A DNA stretch of 64,000 bases, from assembly GCA_028718525.1 (NCBI GenBank), contig JAQULP010000003.1, positions 62,001-126,000 of the forward strand, written 5' to 3'. Both the position numbers and the translations under genes were made by a program. The notes under the pieces were generated by a model. The model saw only the letters and a program-made list of their open reading frames with translations, did no database searches and had not been told where the DNA came from. The first letter of the stretch is position 1, and every line of letters begins with the position of its first letter. Source of the DNA: Sulfuricurvum sp. (lineage in GTDB: Bacteria; Campylobacterota; Campylobacteria; Campylobacterales; Sulfurimonadaceae). Positions 14,768-20,024 of the stretch are shown here, in pieces.

Positions 14768-15163
14768 TTATTTAAATTGTGCTGCTAATTCGGTTAAAAT
14801 TTTTGGTGCCAATATTTCAGAGCCATTATACTTTTGCAATTTTACCCCCACATTATTCATACTTTTAGCCGTATTTTTACAGGCCATTTTTACAACCAGA
14901 TAATCACAGTCTTCAATTGCCGTAGCCATAGTGTCGTGAGCTCGTATATGCTCTATATCCCCTTCGTCATGATCGCAGGTGTGGTGTTCATCATGATCAT
15001 GATGATCTTCTTCGCCCGCAACTTTTGGATTGGCACGAAGCCCTTCTAAAATAAAGCTTTTAAACATCCCTCCGCTTAAAGCAAATACGGCAAAATAAGG
15101 GGTGTGACCGGCATTCCCGGCCATTTTTAACGTTTCGTTGATCACAGGTACAGCGATTTTCAT
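14768..15163 (-). CDS. NifX/NifB-like dinitrogenase cofactor-domain protein with His-rich insert
   Basis: 131 residues. The start MKIAVPVINETLKMAGNAGH and the segment EDCDYLVVKMACKNTAKSM fit the small NifB/NifX (Nitro_FeMo-Co) fold. Members bind iron-sulfur or Fe-Mo cofactor precursors, but many are not linked to nitrogenase. Residues 51-69 form a stretch dense in His and Asp with one Cys (DHHDHDEHHTCDHDEGD), probably a metal-binding loop inserted in the fold. No nif genes are nearby. A role in metal storage or delivery is inference. Confidence 0.65.
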   Translation of the reverse strand: MKIAVPVINETLKMAGNAGHTPYFAVFALSGGMFKSFILEGLRANPKVAGEEDHHDHDEHHTCDHDEGDIEHIRAHDTMATAIEDCDYLVVKMACKNTAKSMNNVGVKLQKYNGSEILAPKILTELAAQFK

Positions 15164-15280
15164 GGTTATTCCTTTTGAGTCTTATCGTAAATTATGCCAT
15201 AGTGTTTCCTTATATTGATTGAGGTGAGTGGAAATTATGCTGTCATAAAAAGTAGTTGTTAATTAAAATTAAGTAATATT

Positions 15281-15311
15281 TTGAGTTATAACGTTTCCTT
15301 TAATGTATAAT
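15281..15311 (+). promoter_or_regulatory. Candidate promoter of the gtrA-like operon
   Basis: TTGAGT at 15281-15286 and TATAAT at 15306-15311, separated by 19 bp, in very AT-rich sequence 83 bp before the gtrA-like ATG. Spacing is slightly long, so the -10 is better supported than the -35. Confidence 0.45.
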
Positions 15312-15349
15312 CAAAATGTGTAGAATTAATTTATGAAAGATACTTAATT

Positions 15350-15397
15350 ATGTTCAAAGATCAATTTGAAGATGCGGGCTTTTGTCATTTTTCATGA
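15350..15397 (+). other. 15-codon leader ORF overlapping the gtrA-like start
   Basis: ATG at 15350 opens a reading frame of 15 codons (MFKDQFEDAGFCHFS) whose TGA overlaps the ATG at 15394 as ATGA. It could be a translated leader that couples translation, or the remnant of a lost gene end. No clear ribosome site. Confidence 0.25.
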
Positions 15398-15753
15398 GAA
15401 AGCAATTTTATAAATTTTTAGGTGTAGGATTAGTCAATACACTTTTTGGGTATTCGCTCTTTTCATTGTTAGTATATTTAAATTTTCATTATACTGTCGC
15501 TGTCTTAATCAGTACAATAATAGGTGTACTTTTTAATTTTAAGACAACAGGGGCAATCGTGTTTTCTTCACACGATCATAGATTAGTTTGGAAATTTATA
15601 GTTGTCTACTCACTAGTATATGTTTTAAATGTTTTTGGACTATTTGTATTAAAACTGATTTCCGTAGATATATACGTTGCGGGAGGAATTTTAGTATTTC
15701 CTTTAGCCTTAATAACGTTTATGTTAAATAAAAAATTTGTCTTTAAAAGGTAA
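15394..15753 (+). CDS. GtrA-like membrane protein
   Basis: 119 residues with four predicted membrane helices (about 7-27, 32-52, 66-88, 94-112). It ends in LNKKFVFKR, the basic tail typical of GtrA-like proteins. In known systems GtrA helps flip undecaprenyl-phosphate-linked sugars across the inner membrane for transfer to O-antigen, teichoic acid or other acceptors. A TTG at 15382 would add four residues, but the ATG is preferred. First gene of a three-gene AT-rich operon, 2 bp before the GT2 gene. Confidence 0.8.
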   Translation: MRKQFYKFLGVGLVNTLFGYSLFSLLVYLNFHYTVAVLISTIIGVLFNFKTTGAIVFSSHDHRLVWKFIVVYSLVYVLNVFGLFVLKLISVDIYVAGGILVFPLALITFMLNKKFVFKR

Positions 15754-15755
15754 CC

Positions 15756-16688
15756 ATGAAAAAAATAAGCATTGTCACTGCGTGTTTTAATGAGGAAGAA
15801 AATGTCAAAGAATTAATTTCTAGAGTTGTTAATGTTATGCAACATCATACTAATTACAATTATGAGCATATTTTCATTGATAATGCTTCAACGGATAACA
15901 CGGTTAATATCTTAAAAGAGATAGCAAAAGAAGATAAAAGAATAAAAATCATTGTCAACTCACGAAATTTTGGTCATATCAAGTCGCCTGCGTATGGACT
16001 TTTTCAGGCAAATGGCGATGCGGTAATTTCCTTGGTTGCAGATTTACAAGATCCGCCTGAACTCATTCATGAATTAATTGAAAAATGGGAATTTGGCGCT
16101 GATATGGTTTTAGCTATTCGTAAAAGTAGTGAAGAGAATTGGGTAATGTATAAAATACGAGAAACCTATTATCGCTTATTACAAACTCTTTCTGAAGTGA
16201 AGATTTATAAAAATTTTACAGGATTTGGTCTTTACAATAGGAAAGTCATGAATGCACTTCAGTCAATTAATGATCCTTATCCTTTTTTGCGTGGGATGAT
16301 AAGTGAAGTTGGATATTCTGTAAGTACATTGCACTATGATCAACCGATTCGCTTGCGAGGCATAACAAAAAATAATTTTTATACACTTTATGATATAGGT
16401 GTGTTGGGTATTATCAATTATTCCAAAATCCCTTTGCGCCTTGCAATTTTTATGGGAACCATTTTTGCCTTTTTGAGTATTCTTACGGGACTAGGTTATT
16501 TAATCATGAAATTCATTTATTGGGATTCCATGTCATTGGGAATTGCACCGTTATTGATAGGAGCTACATTTGCATTTTCTGTTTTGCTTTTTTTTATAGG
16601 TATTATTGGAGAATATATTGGAATGATCTATACACAGGTACTTAATCGCCCTTTGGTATTTGAAAAAGAAAGGATCAATTTTGATTGA
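15756..16688 (+). CDS. Family 2 glycosyltransferase, GtrB/DPM1-like
   Basis: 310 residues. A GT-A catalytic domain (about 1-225) starts KISIVTACFNEEENV, has the nucleotide/metal motif VADLQDPP near 92 and FGLYNRKVM near 165. Two C-terminal membrane helices follow (about 228-252 and 265-288). This layout is that of polyprenyl-phosphate sugar transferases such as GtrB and YkoT, which load a sugar from a nucleotide donor onto undecaprenyl phosphate at the inner face of the membrane. The donor sugar is unknown. Preceded by the flippase-like GtrA gene and overlapping the DUF6044-like gene by 8 bp. Confidence 0.87.
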   Translation: MKKISIVTACFNEEENVKELISRVVNVMQHHTNYNYEHIFIDNASTDNTVNILKEIAKEDKRIKIIVNSRNFGHIKSPAYGLFQANGDAVISLVADLQDPPELIHELIEKWEFGADMVLAIRKSSEENWVMYKIRETYYRLLQTLSEVKIYKNFTGFGLYNRKVMNALQSINDPYPFLRGMISEVGYSVSTLHYDQPIRLRGITKNNFYTLYDIGVLGIINYSKIPLRLAIFMGTIFAFLSILTGLGYLIMKFIYWDSMSLGIAPLLIGATFAFSVLLFFIGIIGEYIGMIYTQVLNRPLVFEKERINFD

Positions 16689-18540
16689 ATCGCTTAGCCA
16701 CTTTTTTTATCATCAAATTGTAAATAGTCCAAGGGTTTTGTTTCTTTTTTCTCTGACAGCTTTATTGATTTATATGTTTCCACTTTATTACTATGGAGAA
16801 GGTGCCCAAGTCCAAATTTTTGATAATTTAGATATTGTTTTCCCCCTATATAAAATACTTATTTCAAGTGGATTGATATTTGCACCATCGGAAACCATTG
16901 TCCCAAATCTGATGGGCGGATTGCCGAGACTTGTGTATGGAAGTGAACTTAATGTTTATTTATGGCTTTTTTACTTTTTTCAACCGTTTATAGCTTTTAC
17001 CATTAATGAGACTTTGATTCATATCAGTGCTTTTGTCGGTATGTTTGTCCTTTTGAACCGTTATTATGTCCCCTCTCATCATCGATATCGATGGCTTATT
17101 CTCTACAGTATTTCTTTAATGTTTGCACTCTTGCCATTTTACACGGGGGCAGGGCTCAGTGTTCCGTCACTTCCGTTGGCTGTATATACTTTTTTAAATA
17201 TTCGAAAGGGGATAAGCCGATGGCATGATTGGTTGATAATTATTTTAATACCTTTTTATAGCAGTCTGATTCTGGTTTATTTCTTTTTCCTTTTAGTAAT
17301 GAGCGGATTGTTTTTGATCGATTTTATACGGAAACGTAAAATTAATTTCCCATTTTTATTAGCTTTAATTGTAATGTCTTTGGTTTTTGTAATCGTTGAG
17401 TACCGTTTGTTCTATGATACGTTTTTTCAGCACCTTTTTGTTTCTCATAGAAAAGAATTTAGCAGTGTTCAGACGTATACGCTGTTAGAAACATACCGAT
17501 CAGCACATCAAGTTTTTTTAAACGGTACGGTGGATATGGATACACGCGCTTCGGTTGTTTTGATCCCTTTTATGCTACTGGTTTTGTTAACGACATTTAT
17601 GAAAAAACAGCTCTCTTGGTATATTTCTTTTACATTGATTGGTCTCTATTTCTTATGGTGTTCTTGGCCAGAATACGTTCAGTATATTACCGGCAATAAA
17701 TTTGCGATACCTGCGCTGGCTGTTATCGTAATGATTCGCTTTGTGCAAGAAAGACGATATAAACTGTTTTTTGGTGCTATTTTACTTCAAATCTTTTTTG
17801 CGTCATGGTACGGATTATGGTTTTATAAAGGGACAGGAGAACTTGGGAATACAATTTCAATTTTAAAAGAGTTTAATTTCGCCCGTATTGCTTTATTACA
17901 GCCTGTTGTTTGGTTTATTATTAGTGCTGTAGGAATGATTATTATTTCTCGAAAAATTTATTTCGCTCCAGTCCTGATAGTAGGTATGTTATTAATTCAC
18001 ATATATATGGCTATACAGGTTCGAGAATTTTCATCACCGAATTCACCTTTTAGTTTTCGGGCTTATTTTGCTGAAGACCTTTTTTCCAAAGTAAAACAGT
18101 ACATTAAGACTGATCCATCAACTTATCGTGTTGGGTGTATAGGATTTGAGCCCGCAATTGCTGCTTATAATGGACTTTATACAATAGATGGTTATGTAAC
18201 AATGTATCCGCTTGAGTATAAGCATCGCTTTCACAAAATTATTGAAAAAACACTTGTGGAAGATAAAGGTAATAATAACTTGTTTTTAGGATGGGGAAGT
18301 AAATGCTACCTTTTTGACGGAGGTGAATCATCGCTTTATTTCCGGCCCAATACAACGATAAAAAAAATTACGTTGAATTTTGATGCTTATTATGCACTAG
18401 GCGGGCGGTATCTATTATCATCGCATCGGATTGAGCAATCTCAGCTAAAGAATTTGATTTTTATGAAAGAATTTGTCGACGAAAAGACATTTTGGAAAAT
18501 ATTTCTTTATAAAGTAAATACCGAAAATGGCAATAAATGA
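16681..18540 (+). CDS. DUF6044-like polytopic membrane protein (YkoS-like)
   Basis: 619 residues, start TTG at 16681 with AGGA 6 nt upstream, overlapping the previous gene by 8 bp. About 11-12 membrane helices fill residues 15-440. A soluble C-terminal domain of about 170 residues follows, presumably outside the cytoplasm. The motif FDNLDIVFPLYK after the first helix and the NLMGGLPR segment recall DUF6044 proteins such as Bacillus YkoS, encoded beside a GT2 (YkoT). The shape is that of a GT-C glycosyltransferase, which would move the lipid-linked sugar to an acceptor. Catalytic function is inferred. Base composition is clearly more AT-rich than neighbours. Confidence 0.65.
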   Translation: MIESLSHFFYHQIVNSPRVLFLFSLTALLIYMFPLYYYGEGAQVQIFDNLDIVFPLYKILISSGLIFAPSETIVPNLMGGLPRLVYGSELNVYLWLFYFFQPFIAFTINETLIHISAFVGMFVLLNRYYVPSHHRYRWLILYSISLMFALLPFYTGAGLSVPSLPLAVYTFLNIRKGISRWHDWLIIILIPFYSSLILVYFFFLLVMSGLFLIDFIRKRKINFPFLLALIVMSLVFVIVEYRLFYDTFFQHLFVSHRKEFSSVQTYTLLETYRSAHQVFLNGTVDMDTRASVVLIPFMLLVLLTTFMKKQLSWYISFTLIGLYFLWCSWPEYVQYITGNKFAIPALAVIVMIRFVQERRYKLFFGAILLQIFFASWYGLWFYKGTGELGNTISILKEFNFARIALLQPVVWFIISAVGMIIISRKIYFAPVLIVGMLLIHIYMAIQVREFSSPNSPFSFRAYFAEDLFSKVKQYIKTDPSTYRVGCIGFEPAIAAYNGLYTIDGYVTMYPLEYKHRFHKIIEKTLVEDKGNNNLFLGWGSKCYLFDGGESSLYFRPNTTIKKITLNFDAYYALGGRYLLSSHRIEQSQLKNLIFMKEFVDEKTFWKIFLYKVNTENGNK

Positions 18541-18551
18541 ATTACTTTAAA

Positions 18552-18566
18552 TTAGATTTAATCTAA
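18552..18566. promoter_or_regulatory. AT-rich 7+1+7 palindrome upstream of the first pilin gene
   Basis: TTAGATT-T-AATCTAA lies 12 bp after the DUF6044-like stop and 66 bp before the first pilin ATG. It is too AT-rich for a convincing terminator, so an operator for the pilin gene is possible. Confidence 0.3.
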
Positions 18567-18631
18567 ATTGTCTCATAATGCATACTAAGGTTACGAGTGT
18601 AATCTATATTTTAAGCTTTAAGGAGTAAGCC

Positions 18632-19009
18632 ATGAAACGTTCAGGTTTTACTATGATCGAATTGATTTTCGTAATTGTTATTTTGGGTATTTTAGCCGCT
18701 GTTGCTATTCCAAAATTGGCTGCGACACGTGATGATGCAAAAGCATCAAAAGCGGCAAGTGATTTGGCTACTTATATCAGTGATATTGGTGCTGATTATA
18801 CAGCTACAGGTGCCATTCATACAGGAAGTTCAAACGTTACATTGGGGAATGATGGTTGTTTCTCAGTAACAGCTTCTACTTCTACCGGCATTACAATCGG
18901 TGATGGTGCAAGTAGTGCAGCAACTGCATGTTCGGCAGCAAAAACTATTGCTAGCAAAGCTGGTAATATCGGTGCAAAAACATTTGGTGGATCAAGCGTA
19001 ACCTACTAA
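18632..19009 (+). CDS. Type IV pilin-like protein 1
   Basis: 125 residues. A short leader MKRSG precedes FTMIELIFVIVILGILAAVA, the class III signal cut between Gly and Phe by a prepilin peptidase, with the conserved Glu at position 5 of the mature protein. The following body is small and rich in Ala, Ser, Thr and Gly, with two cysteines (near 83 and 101) that could form a disulfide loop like a pilin D-region. A strong ribosome site (AAGGAG) and a terminator directly after suggest a separately expressed, possibly major, subunit. It could also be a pseudopilin for DNA uptake or secretion. Confidence 0.85.
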   Translation: MKRSGFTMIELIFVIVILGILAAVAIPKLAATRDDAKASKAASDLATYISDIGADYTATGAIHTGSSNVTLGNDGCFSVTASTSTGITIGDGASSAATACSAAKTIASKAGNIGAKTFGGSSVTY

Positions 19010-19015
19010 ACCTTT

Positions 19016-19051
19016 GGTAGATGGATTATTCCATCTGCCACTTTTGTATTT
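19016..19051 (+). terminator. Terminator after pilin-like gene 1
   Basis: Ten-bp stem GGTAGATGGA / TCCATCTGCC (one G-T pair) with loop TTAT, followed by ACTTTTGTATTT. It starts 7 bp after the stop codon. Confidence 0.7.
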
Positions 19052-19120: not shown

Positions 19121-19576
19121 GTGCGCGCAAGAAAAGCTTTTACAATGATAGAACTGATTTTTGTTATTGTGATACTTGGTGTGTTGGCTGCAGTTGCTAT
19201 GCCGCGTATAGCGGCTTCACGAGATGATGCGCGGGCATCTAGTTTGGCTCAAAATATTATGAGCGGGGCCGGGGAAGTTGCCGCATACGCAACATCCAAA
19301 GGGGATATAGTGAATGATTTGACTGAAATGTCAAACGGGTATAAAACATTGGTTGATACTGGTGATGCTGTTAATGATACAACAAATAAAAAAGTGACAG
19401 TATCATTCGGGGCTGTTAGTGATTGCATAACAGTACAAATTACGGCAAGTGGCGGATTGGATACGTTATCTATAGCCAAAGGAGCTTCTGGTGATGAAAA
19501 ATGCGATCGGTTGCAGGGATTGATAGATACTCATGATTATCCAATGGTACTGAAAGGGATTCATGTCGTATTTTAA
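19121..19576 (+). CDS. Type IV pilin-like protein 2
   Basis: 151 residues from a GTG start with GGAGGA at 19109-19114 and 6-nt spacing. The leader MRARKA precedes FTMIELIFVIVILGVLAAVA. Note that the residue before the cleavage site is Ala rather than the usual Gly. Two cysteines (near 108 and 126) may bridge the C-terminal part. It has its own leader after the pilin 1 terminator and overlaps the next pilin gene by 14 bp, so proteins 2 and 3 are probably co-translated minor pilins. Confidence 0.83.
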   Translation: MRARKAFTMIELIFVIVILGVLAAVAMPRIAASRDDARASSLAQNIMSGAGEVAAYATSKGDIVNDLTEMSNGYKTLVDTGDAVNDTTNKKVTVSFGAVSDCITVQITASGGLDTLSIAKGASGDEKCDRLQGLIDTHDYPMVLKGIHVVF

Positions 19577-20024
19577 ACGAAAAGCTTTTACAATGATTGA
19601 ATTGGTGTTTGTCATTGTCATTTTAGGTATTTTGGCAGCGATTGCTGTCCCAAAATTGGCAGTAACACGTAATGATGCACAAATTGCCAAGGGGCGGAGC
19701 GATGTTGCGGCGATTCGGGCCGCTATCGTGAACGAACGGCAAACACGGTTGCTGCAGGGGAGCAGTTCTTATATCAATAAACTTCATCATGGAACGGATA
19801 TGTTATTTGATAATAACGGAACAGCCACGAGTACCTTATTGCAGTATGGTGTGGCAACAAAGACGGATACGGACGGTACATGGCAACCGTATGCAAACGC
19901 AAACGGTTCGAATTGGGAATATAAATTCCATGTAATGGGGGGGGACCATGTCTTTACCTATAATCCGACGGACGGTACATTTAAGTGTACAAGCGGGACC
20001 TATTGTACACAATTGGTAAATTAA
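19563..20024 (+). CDS. Type IV pilin-like protein 3
   Basis: 153 residues. The leader MSYFKRKA precedes FTMIELVFVIVILGILAAIA, again with Ala before the cut site. The body is unlike proteins 1 and 2 and has a Trp/Tyr/Gly-rich C-terminal half (about 100-150), with two cysteines near 141 and 147 close to the end. A run of eight G (about 19937-19944) encodes Met-Gly-Gly-Asp. Overlaps pilin 2 by 14 bp, and priA begins 11 bp after its stop, so pilin 2, pilin 3 and priA may form one transcript. Confidence 0.83.
   Translation: MSYFKRKAFTMIELVFVIVILGILAAIAVPKLAVTRNDAQIAKGRSDVAAIRAAIVNERQTRLLQGSSSYINKLHHGTDMLFDNNGTATSTLLQYGVATKTDTDGTWQPYANANGSNWEYKFHVMGGDHVFTYNPTDGTFKCTSGTYCTQLVN

Follow-up and report, generated by a model that had tools for sequence, protein, structure and literature searches.

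In Pseudomonas aeruginosa, pilins are glycosylated by TfpO or TfpW, membrane glycosyltransferases encoded next to the pilin gene, and this protects against pilus-targeting phages; in the pilA-tfpO and pilA-tfpW units a pilin allele is tied to the adjacent transferase, alleles and transferases swap together, and a terminator-like hairpin follows the pilin gene (PMC11841053). Here we describe a comparable arrangement in a 64,000-nucleotide stretch of DNA (the window) from a metagenome-assembled Sulfuricurvum genome (G000; 1.94 Mb, 31 contigs, 83% complete), in which three forward genes, encoding a GtrA-family protein, a family 2 glycosyltransferase (GT2) and a DUF6044 protein, stand between a reverse-strand gene for a 131-residue protein (14768-15163) and a row of three pilin genes followed by priA. 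We consider it probable that this trio is a horizontally acquired, mobile pilin-glycosylation cassette, in which the sugar, its acceptor, the enzymatic activities and the direction of flipping are those that we infer from gene content and comparative genomics. By analogy, the cassette most likely works like those of P. aeruginosa while differing from them in transferase family, gene order and sugar route. Its transferase is a DUF6044 protein and not TfpO or TfpW (set apart by family assignment), the transferase genes lie upstream of the pilin and not downstream, and a loader and a flippase are included for a sugar that is itself a prediction. Two features of a pilin-accessory cassette are found here, namely a glycosyltransferase gene adjacent to a pilin and co-segregation of the transferase with the pilin allele.

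By composition, the trio is also a member of the GtrA/GT-A/GT-C three-component systems (PMC8035078); all three components are encoded together in the window, and matches to Protein Data Bank (PDB) sequences make the GT-A enzyme one of the polyprenyl-phosphate type. A sequence-only reading of the window had proposed just such a set of loader, flippase and GT-C transferase, which the family assignments (PF00535 and PF04138) and the predicted GT-C fold support. Listeria GtlA-GtcA-GtlB and Bacillus ykoS-ykoT likewise pair a GT-A loader and a GtrA-type flippase with a GT-C enzyme of the YkoS/GtlB class carrying a DXXD motif in its first outer loop (PMC5836110, PMC7389260). The Listeria acceptor, however, is lipoteichoic acid, which is absent from Gram-negative cells, the window GT2 and DUF6044 proteins are distant from their Gram-positive counterparts (26-36% for DUF6044), and the likeness to GtlB is drawn from its motif and its published relation to YkoS. 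The same three roles recur in Shigella GtrA-GtrB-Gtr(type) and in the Arn system (ArnC-ArnEF-ArnT), although these act on O-antigen and lipid A, respectively, through final transferases of families other than DUF6044. The likeness to Arn extends to a second cassette architecture in Campylobacterota, which has an ArnC-like GT2 and an ArnF-like flippase, and ArnT is among the structural matches of DUF6044. The Pgf system of Streptococcus mutans (PgfS, PgfM1, PgfE, and PgfM2) modifies surface proteins (PMC5856776), as proposed here for the window trio, but its PgfM proteins are PMT-2-like and not DUF6044, and its operon holds no GtrA.

Across Sulfuricurvum, the cassette accompanies a single pilin allele. 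At the pilin loci of five DUF6044-positive genomes (G000, G423, G410, G414, and G425) the first pilin or pilins are invariably short (5/5; 119-123 residues when mature), whereas short pilins occur in none of 19 DUF6044-negative loci, where every pilin of the row has at least 130 residues. A further genome, G308, carries DUF6044 elsewhere, in a polysaccharide locus, and has ordinary long pilins at the pilin site. The short allele of the window is pilin 1, the presumed acceptor (18632-19009, on the + strand like all features below unless stated otherwise; mature length 120 residues; N_methyl match at 4.6e-7). When pilins were compared without the conserved N-terminus, the five closest to pilin 1 all came from the other four DUF6044 genomes (G410, G423, G414, and G425; identity 0.53-0.64), and the next match, at 0.48, from a DUF6044-negative genome; the probability of four positives filling the top four of 24 places is 9e-5 if genomes are exchangeable, a figure that ignores phylogeny. 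Pilin 2 (19121-19576; N_methyl 2.2e-6) is not tied to DUF6044, its best matches coming from positive and negative genomes alike, and the matches of pilin 3 (19563-20024; N_methyl 7.2e-7), which adjoins priA and is kept in most sister loci, are not ordered by DUF6044 status. A pckA tree puts the DUF6044 carriers at three separate positions, with the window genome among DUF6044-negative species. Close relatives hold different versions: G423 has two tandem DUF6044 genes without a local loader or flippase, and G425 a full sugar-pathway cassette. That the trio precedes three pilins, and that GT-C enzymes accept lipids, glycans and proteins, would also suit another exported molecule working with pili as the acceptor (a minor pilin, a pilus-borne adhesin or a lipid); with only the first of the three pilins co-segregating with DUF6044, we regard this as very improbable.

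The trio is recently inserted relative to sister species, probably by horizontal transfer, and the segment is clearly mobile within the genus. Measured against window-wide statistics over 60 open reading frames (ORFs), the GC content of GtrA (27.7%), GT2 (32.3%) and DUF6044 (34.0%) compares with a mean of 44.6% (standard deviation 3.1) for the other large ORFs, and these are the three lowest values of all 60, which bears out the earlier impression that the trio is richer in A+T than its neighbours. Sister Sulfuricurvum genomes without the trio show the order glnA, pckA, (131-residue gene), pilin, pilin, priA. In blastn alignments with sister pckA-pilin-priA loci that keep the 131-residue gene, homology ends at about 15175-15223 (narrower estimate 15201-15204) and restarts at about 18556-18590 (narrower estimate 18566-18590), just before the first pilin, delimiting an inserted segment of ~3.36 kb that is absent from sister species (15204-18566; borders approximate to some tens of bases). 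Since the alignment stops and restarts on either side of it, the insert holds exactly the trio; the operon start proposed earlier (15240) falls ~36 bp within it. Sister matches begin again in the region upstream of pilin 1 (18566-18631), its presumed promoter, which is kept in sister species at 80-87% nucleotide identity. Beyond this point sister homology covers mostly the first ~35 codons of pilin 1, and the rest of the gene has nucleotide similarity only with the DUF6044 carriers G423 and G410 (73-74%) and G425 (inside a 4.4-kb match). The low third-position GC of pilin 1 (0.21) was dropped as a sign of transfer, the long pilins of sister species being equally low. The assembly is not suspect, because the trio is well away from the ends of its 152-kb contig and the succession of GtrA, GT2, DUF6044 and pilin is repeated, apart from one added gene, in G425.

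An AT-rich segment that is clearly mobile within the genus, and of which the close relatives G423 and G425 hold different versions, might reflect a neutral insertion hotspot, in which foreign AT-rich DNA accumulates at the pilin promoter region and the short pilins are carried along with no functional link to it. We find this improbable: 18 DUF6044-negative sister loci carry no other cargo between the upstream gene and the first pilin, only G401 (with toxin-antitoxin-like genes) doing so, and other genera show the same pairing at other places.

The wider distribution was drawn from joined surveys of 397 Campylobacterota genomes, 399 genomes of the order and 41 Sulfuricurvum genomes. PF19510, the DUF6044 profile, scored above its cut-off in 8/397, 9/399 and 6/41 of these, or 13 distinct genomes in total, and DUF6044 is rare in Campylobacterota. 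Weak matches in G174, G470, and G482 were below the cut-off and were rejected; inspection of G174 (L025) found no DUF6044-like gene nearby. In 11 of the 13 carriers DUF6044 lies no more than 2.2 kb from an N_methyl pilin gene. In the six single-contig genomes measured, 1.0-2.3% of positions are equally close to such a gene, and the chance of a pilin-adjacent DUF6044 in five of six would be ~5e-9 if the cases were independent, shared ancestry making the true figure larger. The gene occupies different chromosomal settings, which are pckA-priA in Sulfuricurvum, the interval from pilins to priA in G360, G191, and G225, and the uvrB side in G177 and G264; the pattern is also seen at L029, L031, and L036 (Sulfurovum, Helicobacteraceae metagenome-assembled genome), and the L032 and L073 loci end at contig ends. 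G360 (L019:5963-13545) has a tandem row of four DUF6044 genes (33-39% identity to the window protein) that leads straight into four pilins and priA, which gives the impression that transferases and pilins multiplied jointly.

These neighbourhoods bear on the main competing explanation, a Gtr-type modification of lipopolysaccharide O-antigen or another surface polysaccharide, in which a side-chain sugar is added to a glycan and the pilin neighbourhood is incidental. O-antigen and teichoic acids are the classical targets of GtrA/GtrB/GT-C systems (PMC7389260, PMC8035078), lipoteichoic acid is that of GtlB, which falls in one class with DUF6044 (PMC5836110), and the likely donor genes of G000 sit in a polysaccharide-like region. 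This explanation would leave the pilin adjacency in 11 genomes and several chromosomal settings, as well as the joint change of pilin allele and DUF6044, to coincidence, and we consider it a serious but distinctly less likely account. We prefer pilin over O-antigen as the acceptor mainly because of the pilin allele pairing. Several observations nevertheless weigh against a pilin acceptor. DUF6044 sits inside polysaccharide clusters in G308 and G499, with no pilins within the DNA read, and no pilin was found near DUF6044 outside Campylobacterota, again within the DNA read. The candidate donor genes are distant from the trio in the G000 genome and may serve O-antigen, and simple linkage could explain why pilin and DUF6044 travel together. 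A search of the short pilins for a diagnostic site revealed no Ser or Thr peculiar to DUF6044-linked pilins. The proposed role of pilin 1 as acceptor comes from comparative genomics, and a glycan on the pilin is a prediction. The sequence-only reading had named a pilin or surface glycan as acceptor by pure inference; the adjacency and allele co-segregation now lend comparative support to the pilin, which stays a putative acceptor. As for candidates that were set aside, the YT and FGGS motifs are not diagnostic of DUF6044-linked pilins, being present also in pilins without DUF6044, and DUF6044 is not a pilin-specific family, as Listeria, Bacillota, Bacteroidota and others carry it without pilins.

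The prediction that DUF6044 is a GT-C transferase draws on a fold model, a conserved motif and the link to YkoS/GtlB. The window protein (16681-18540; PF19510 at 2e-150) matches the profile with 502 bits against a cut-off of 27, over model positions 3-564 of 564. An AlphaFold2 model built with 53 relatives reached a predicted local distance difference test score (pLDDT) of 93 and a predicted template modelling score (pTM) of 0.93. Among the 50 structural matches listed by VIA-align 2, the first 47 are all GT-C fold proteins, with Z scores of 15.3 for STT3/OST (436 residues), 15.1 for AftD, 14.1 for Pmt1-Pmt2, 12.4 for PglB, and 12.2 for ArnT, and Foldseek returned five matches with E below 0.001, every one a GT-C enzyme. 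A single-sequence homology search against solved structures gave no match, fold comparison alone doing so. A transmembrane helix (16-40, model numbering) is followed in the first outer loop by DNLD at 47-50, where D47 is invariant and D50 at least 90% conserved across 53 sequences. In the GT-C superfamily, the catalytic acid is carried in the first outer loop after the first transmembrane helix. The D-x-x-D position of the window protein corresponds to the DXXD of Listeria GtlB, in which D35 and D38 are both required for lipoteichoic acid galactosylation; GtlB and B. subtilis YkoS are 49% identical and have been proposed as a novel GT-C class, GtlB shows some similarity to TfpW, and ykoS-ykoT form a GT-A/GT-C pair within one operon (PMC5836110). 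The only positive control genome for PF19510 was that of B. subtilis, where the match is presumably YkoS. These results agree with the statement of the sequence-only reading that Bacillus ykoT and ykoS pair the same families, and the fold and conserved Asp motif uphold the suggestion of a GT-C-like third protein. Pfam assigns DUF6044 no function, and a literature search found no paper naming it in the library covered; in effect, its function has already been proposed under other names, to which the fold model adds direct support.

The proposed loader is the GT2 protein (15756-16688; PF00535 at 2.9e-29), a GtrB/ArnC/PgfS-like polyprenyl-phosphate sugar transferase with two C-terminal transmembrane helices. 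This role is assigned from its nearest PDB sequences, Synechocystis sll0501 (2e-58), ArnC (1e-30) and dolichol-phosphate mannose synthase (8e-17); the PgfS profile matches at 1e-53, yet under its cut-off (183 of 500 bits). The putative lipid-linked sugar flippase is the GtrA-family protein (15394-15753; PF04138 at 1.4e-13), which has 119 residues from ATG 15394 in an ORF open from TTG 15382 and shares 63% identity with its counterpart in the G425 cassette. DUF6044 has 619 residues from TTG 16681, the length given by the sequence-only reading, with AAAGGA upstream of this start and an ORF open from TTG 16660; as that reading had also noted, the three genes overlap or nearly touch and directly precede three pilin genes. 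All three are on the + strand, the ORFs of GT2 and DUF6044 share a few bases, and the N_methyl pilin genes start at 18632, 19121, and 19563. A gap of 92 bp separates the DUF6044 stop from pilin 1, which is directly followed by a terminator-like hairpin of 11 pairs with a T-rich tail (19015-19040, found by pattern scan), as in P. aeruginosa; with three such hairpins found in the region against 3.2 expected by chance, the argument is one of position and not of count. Pili are plausible in G000, as its genome has several PilB/GspE-like and PilT-like ATPase genes.

The cassettes of other genomes follow two architectures and provide clues to the sugar donor. In the first, rfbF, rfbG, an acetolactate-synthase-like thiamine pyrophosphate (TPP) enzyme, an epimerase and RfbH precede GtrA, GT2 and DUF6044; the whole set is present in G425, and parts of it are visible in G058, G264, and L073 (a Desulfurellaceae contig), with RfbF, RfbG, and RfbH above curated cut-offs. 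The GtrA-GT2-DUF6044 order of the window recurs in these same loci, with one extra gene in G425. In the second, an ArnC/PgfS-like GT2 of another subfamily, an acyl-modifying enzyme, an ArnF-like small membrane protein and WecE (670 bits against a cut-off of 435) precede DUF6044, and GtrA is missing. As this second architecture is the commoner in Campylobacterota DUF6044 loci, the three-gene set is ruled out as a rule; of the co-occurrence suggested earlier, the association of DUF6044 with pilins stands, and the exact trio represents one of two architectures. PgfS is the best NCBIfam profile for the GT2s of both. The window GT2 is 69-80% identical to those of the first architecture, and DUF6044 34-60%, so that loaders are conserved and transferases variable.

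In the G000 genome, RfbF, RfbG, the TPP enzyme, the epimerase and RfbH (89% identical) are encoded ~52 kb downstream of the trio on the same contig, beyond the window. Among PDB sequences the TPP enzyme is closest to 8rph (JanthE), followed by 5ahk, with true acetolactate synthases ranking lower, and YerE-like enzymes are known to add a two-carbon branch to cytidine diphosphate (CDP)-3,6-dideoxy-4-keto-glucose (PMC12247030). From the rfb genes and the YerE-like TPP enzyme, the donor is likely to be a CDP-3,6-dideoxy sugar, possibly branched.

In the mechanism that we propose, GT2, working at the inner face of the membrane, would take a sugar from its nucleotide-bound donor and load it on undecaprenyl phosphate, this donor probably being a CDP-3,6-dideoxyhexose, perhaps C-branched by the YerE-like enzyme, supplied by the downstream genes. 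GtrA would flip the lipid-linked sugar; flippase activity of GtrA-type proteins lacks biochemical proof even in model systems (PMC5836110). DUF6044, with a predicted catalytic Asp in the D-x-x-D of its first periplasmic loop, would then hand the sugar to an outside acceptor, most likely pilin 1, before or during pilus assembly. A more specific version, which we put forward tentatively as possible though on balance doubtful, is that the mobile unit of pilin allele and DUF6044 places one C-branched 3,6-dideoxy (yersiniose-like) sugar of a CDP pathway on the major pilin, and that a single transferase family can be served by exchangeable loaders and flippases (GtrA or ArnF-like).

Further variation was seen around these genes. 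An unmatched polytopic protein of 771-831 residues, with no counterpart in Pfam or NCBIfam, lies between GtrA and GT2 at L162:4643-7018, L179:4672-6987, and L181:13221-15716, and may be another transferase sharing the same loader. A polytopic protein of ~380 residues recurs in ArnF-type cassettes (L029:5233-6375, L036:7755-8891), the L029 copy having no Pfam or NCBIfam match. DUF6044 is fused in G058 (L021:7711-10917; 1068-residue ORF) behind a second polytopic membrane domain of ~450 residues that is also membrane-transferase-like in look, and in one Listeria species (G434; L093:6784-8479, L190/L191) the gene is split into two overlapping pieces, being intact in related Listeria. At the Sulfuricurvum pilin site, a further mobile insertion is seen in G401 (L169:1-4931), where toxin-antitoxin-like genes (PIN-type start) precede the pilins and short ORFs separate these from priA. 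In some but not all Sulfuricurvum genomes, two additional pilin-like genes separate glnA from pckA (L135:3978-4961, L136:12680-13680, L141:12852-13828, L142:4308-5248). The 131-residue protein at the insertion border has NifX-like ends and a His/Asp-rich stretch, EEDHHDHDEHHTCDHDEGD, and no significant Pfam match.

A literature search on pilin glycosyltransferases of Campylobacterota found nothing relevant. If the proposed role is correct, environmental Campylobacterota would vary their pili by swapping a pilin allele and a sugar-transfer cassette jointly, as P. aeruginosa does, and under the yersiniose-like version pilins would receive their sugar through a transferase family and from a donor that pili are not known to use. 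The pairing with pilins gives DUF6044 a testable acceptor across the whole phylum, and its loci offer a natural series in which to study the recognition of different acceptors by a single transferase family as the donor modules are exchanged.

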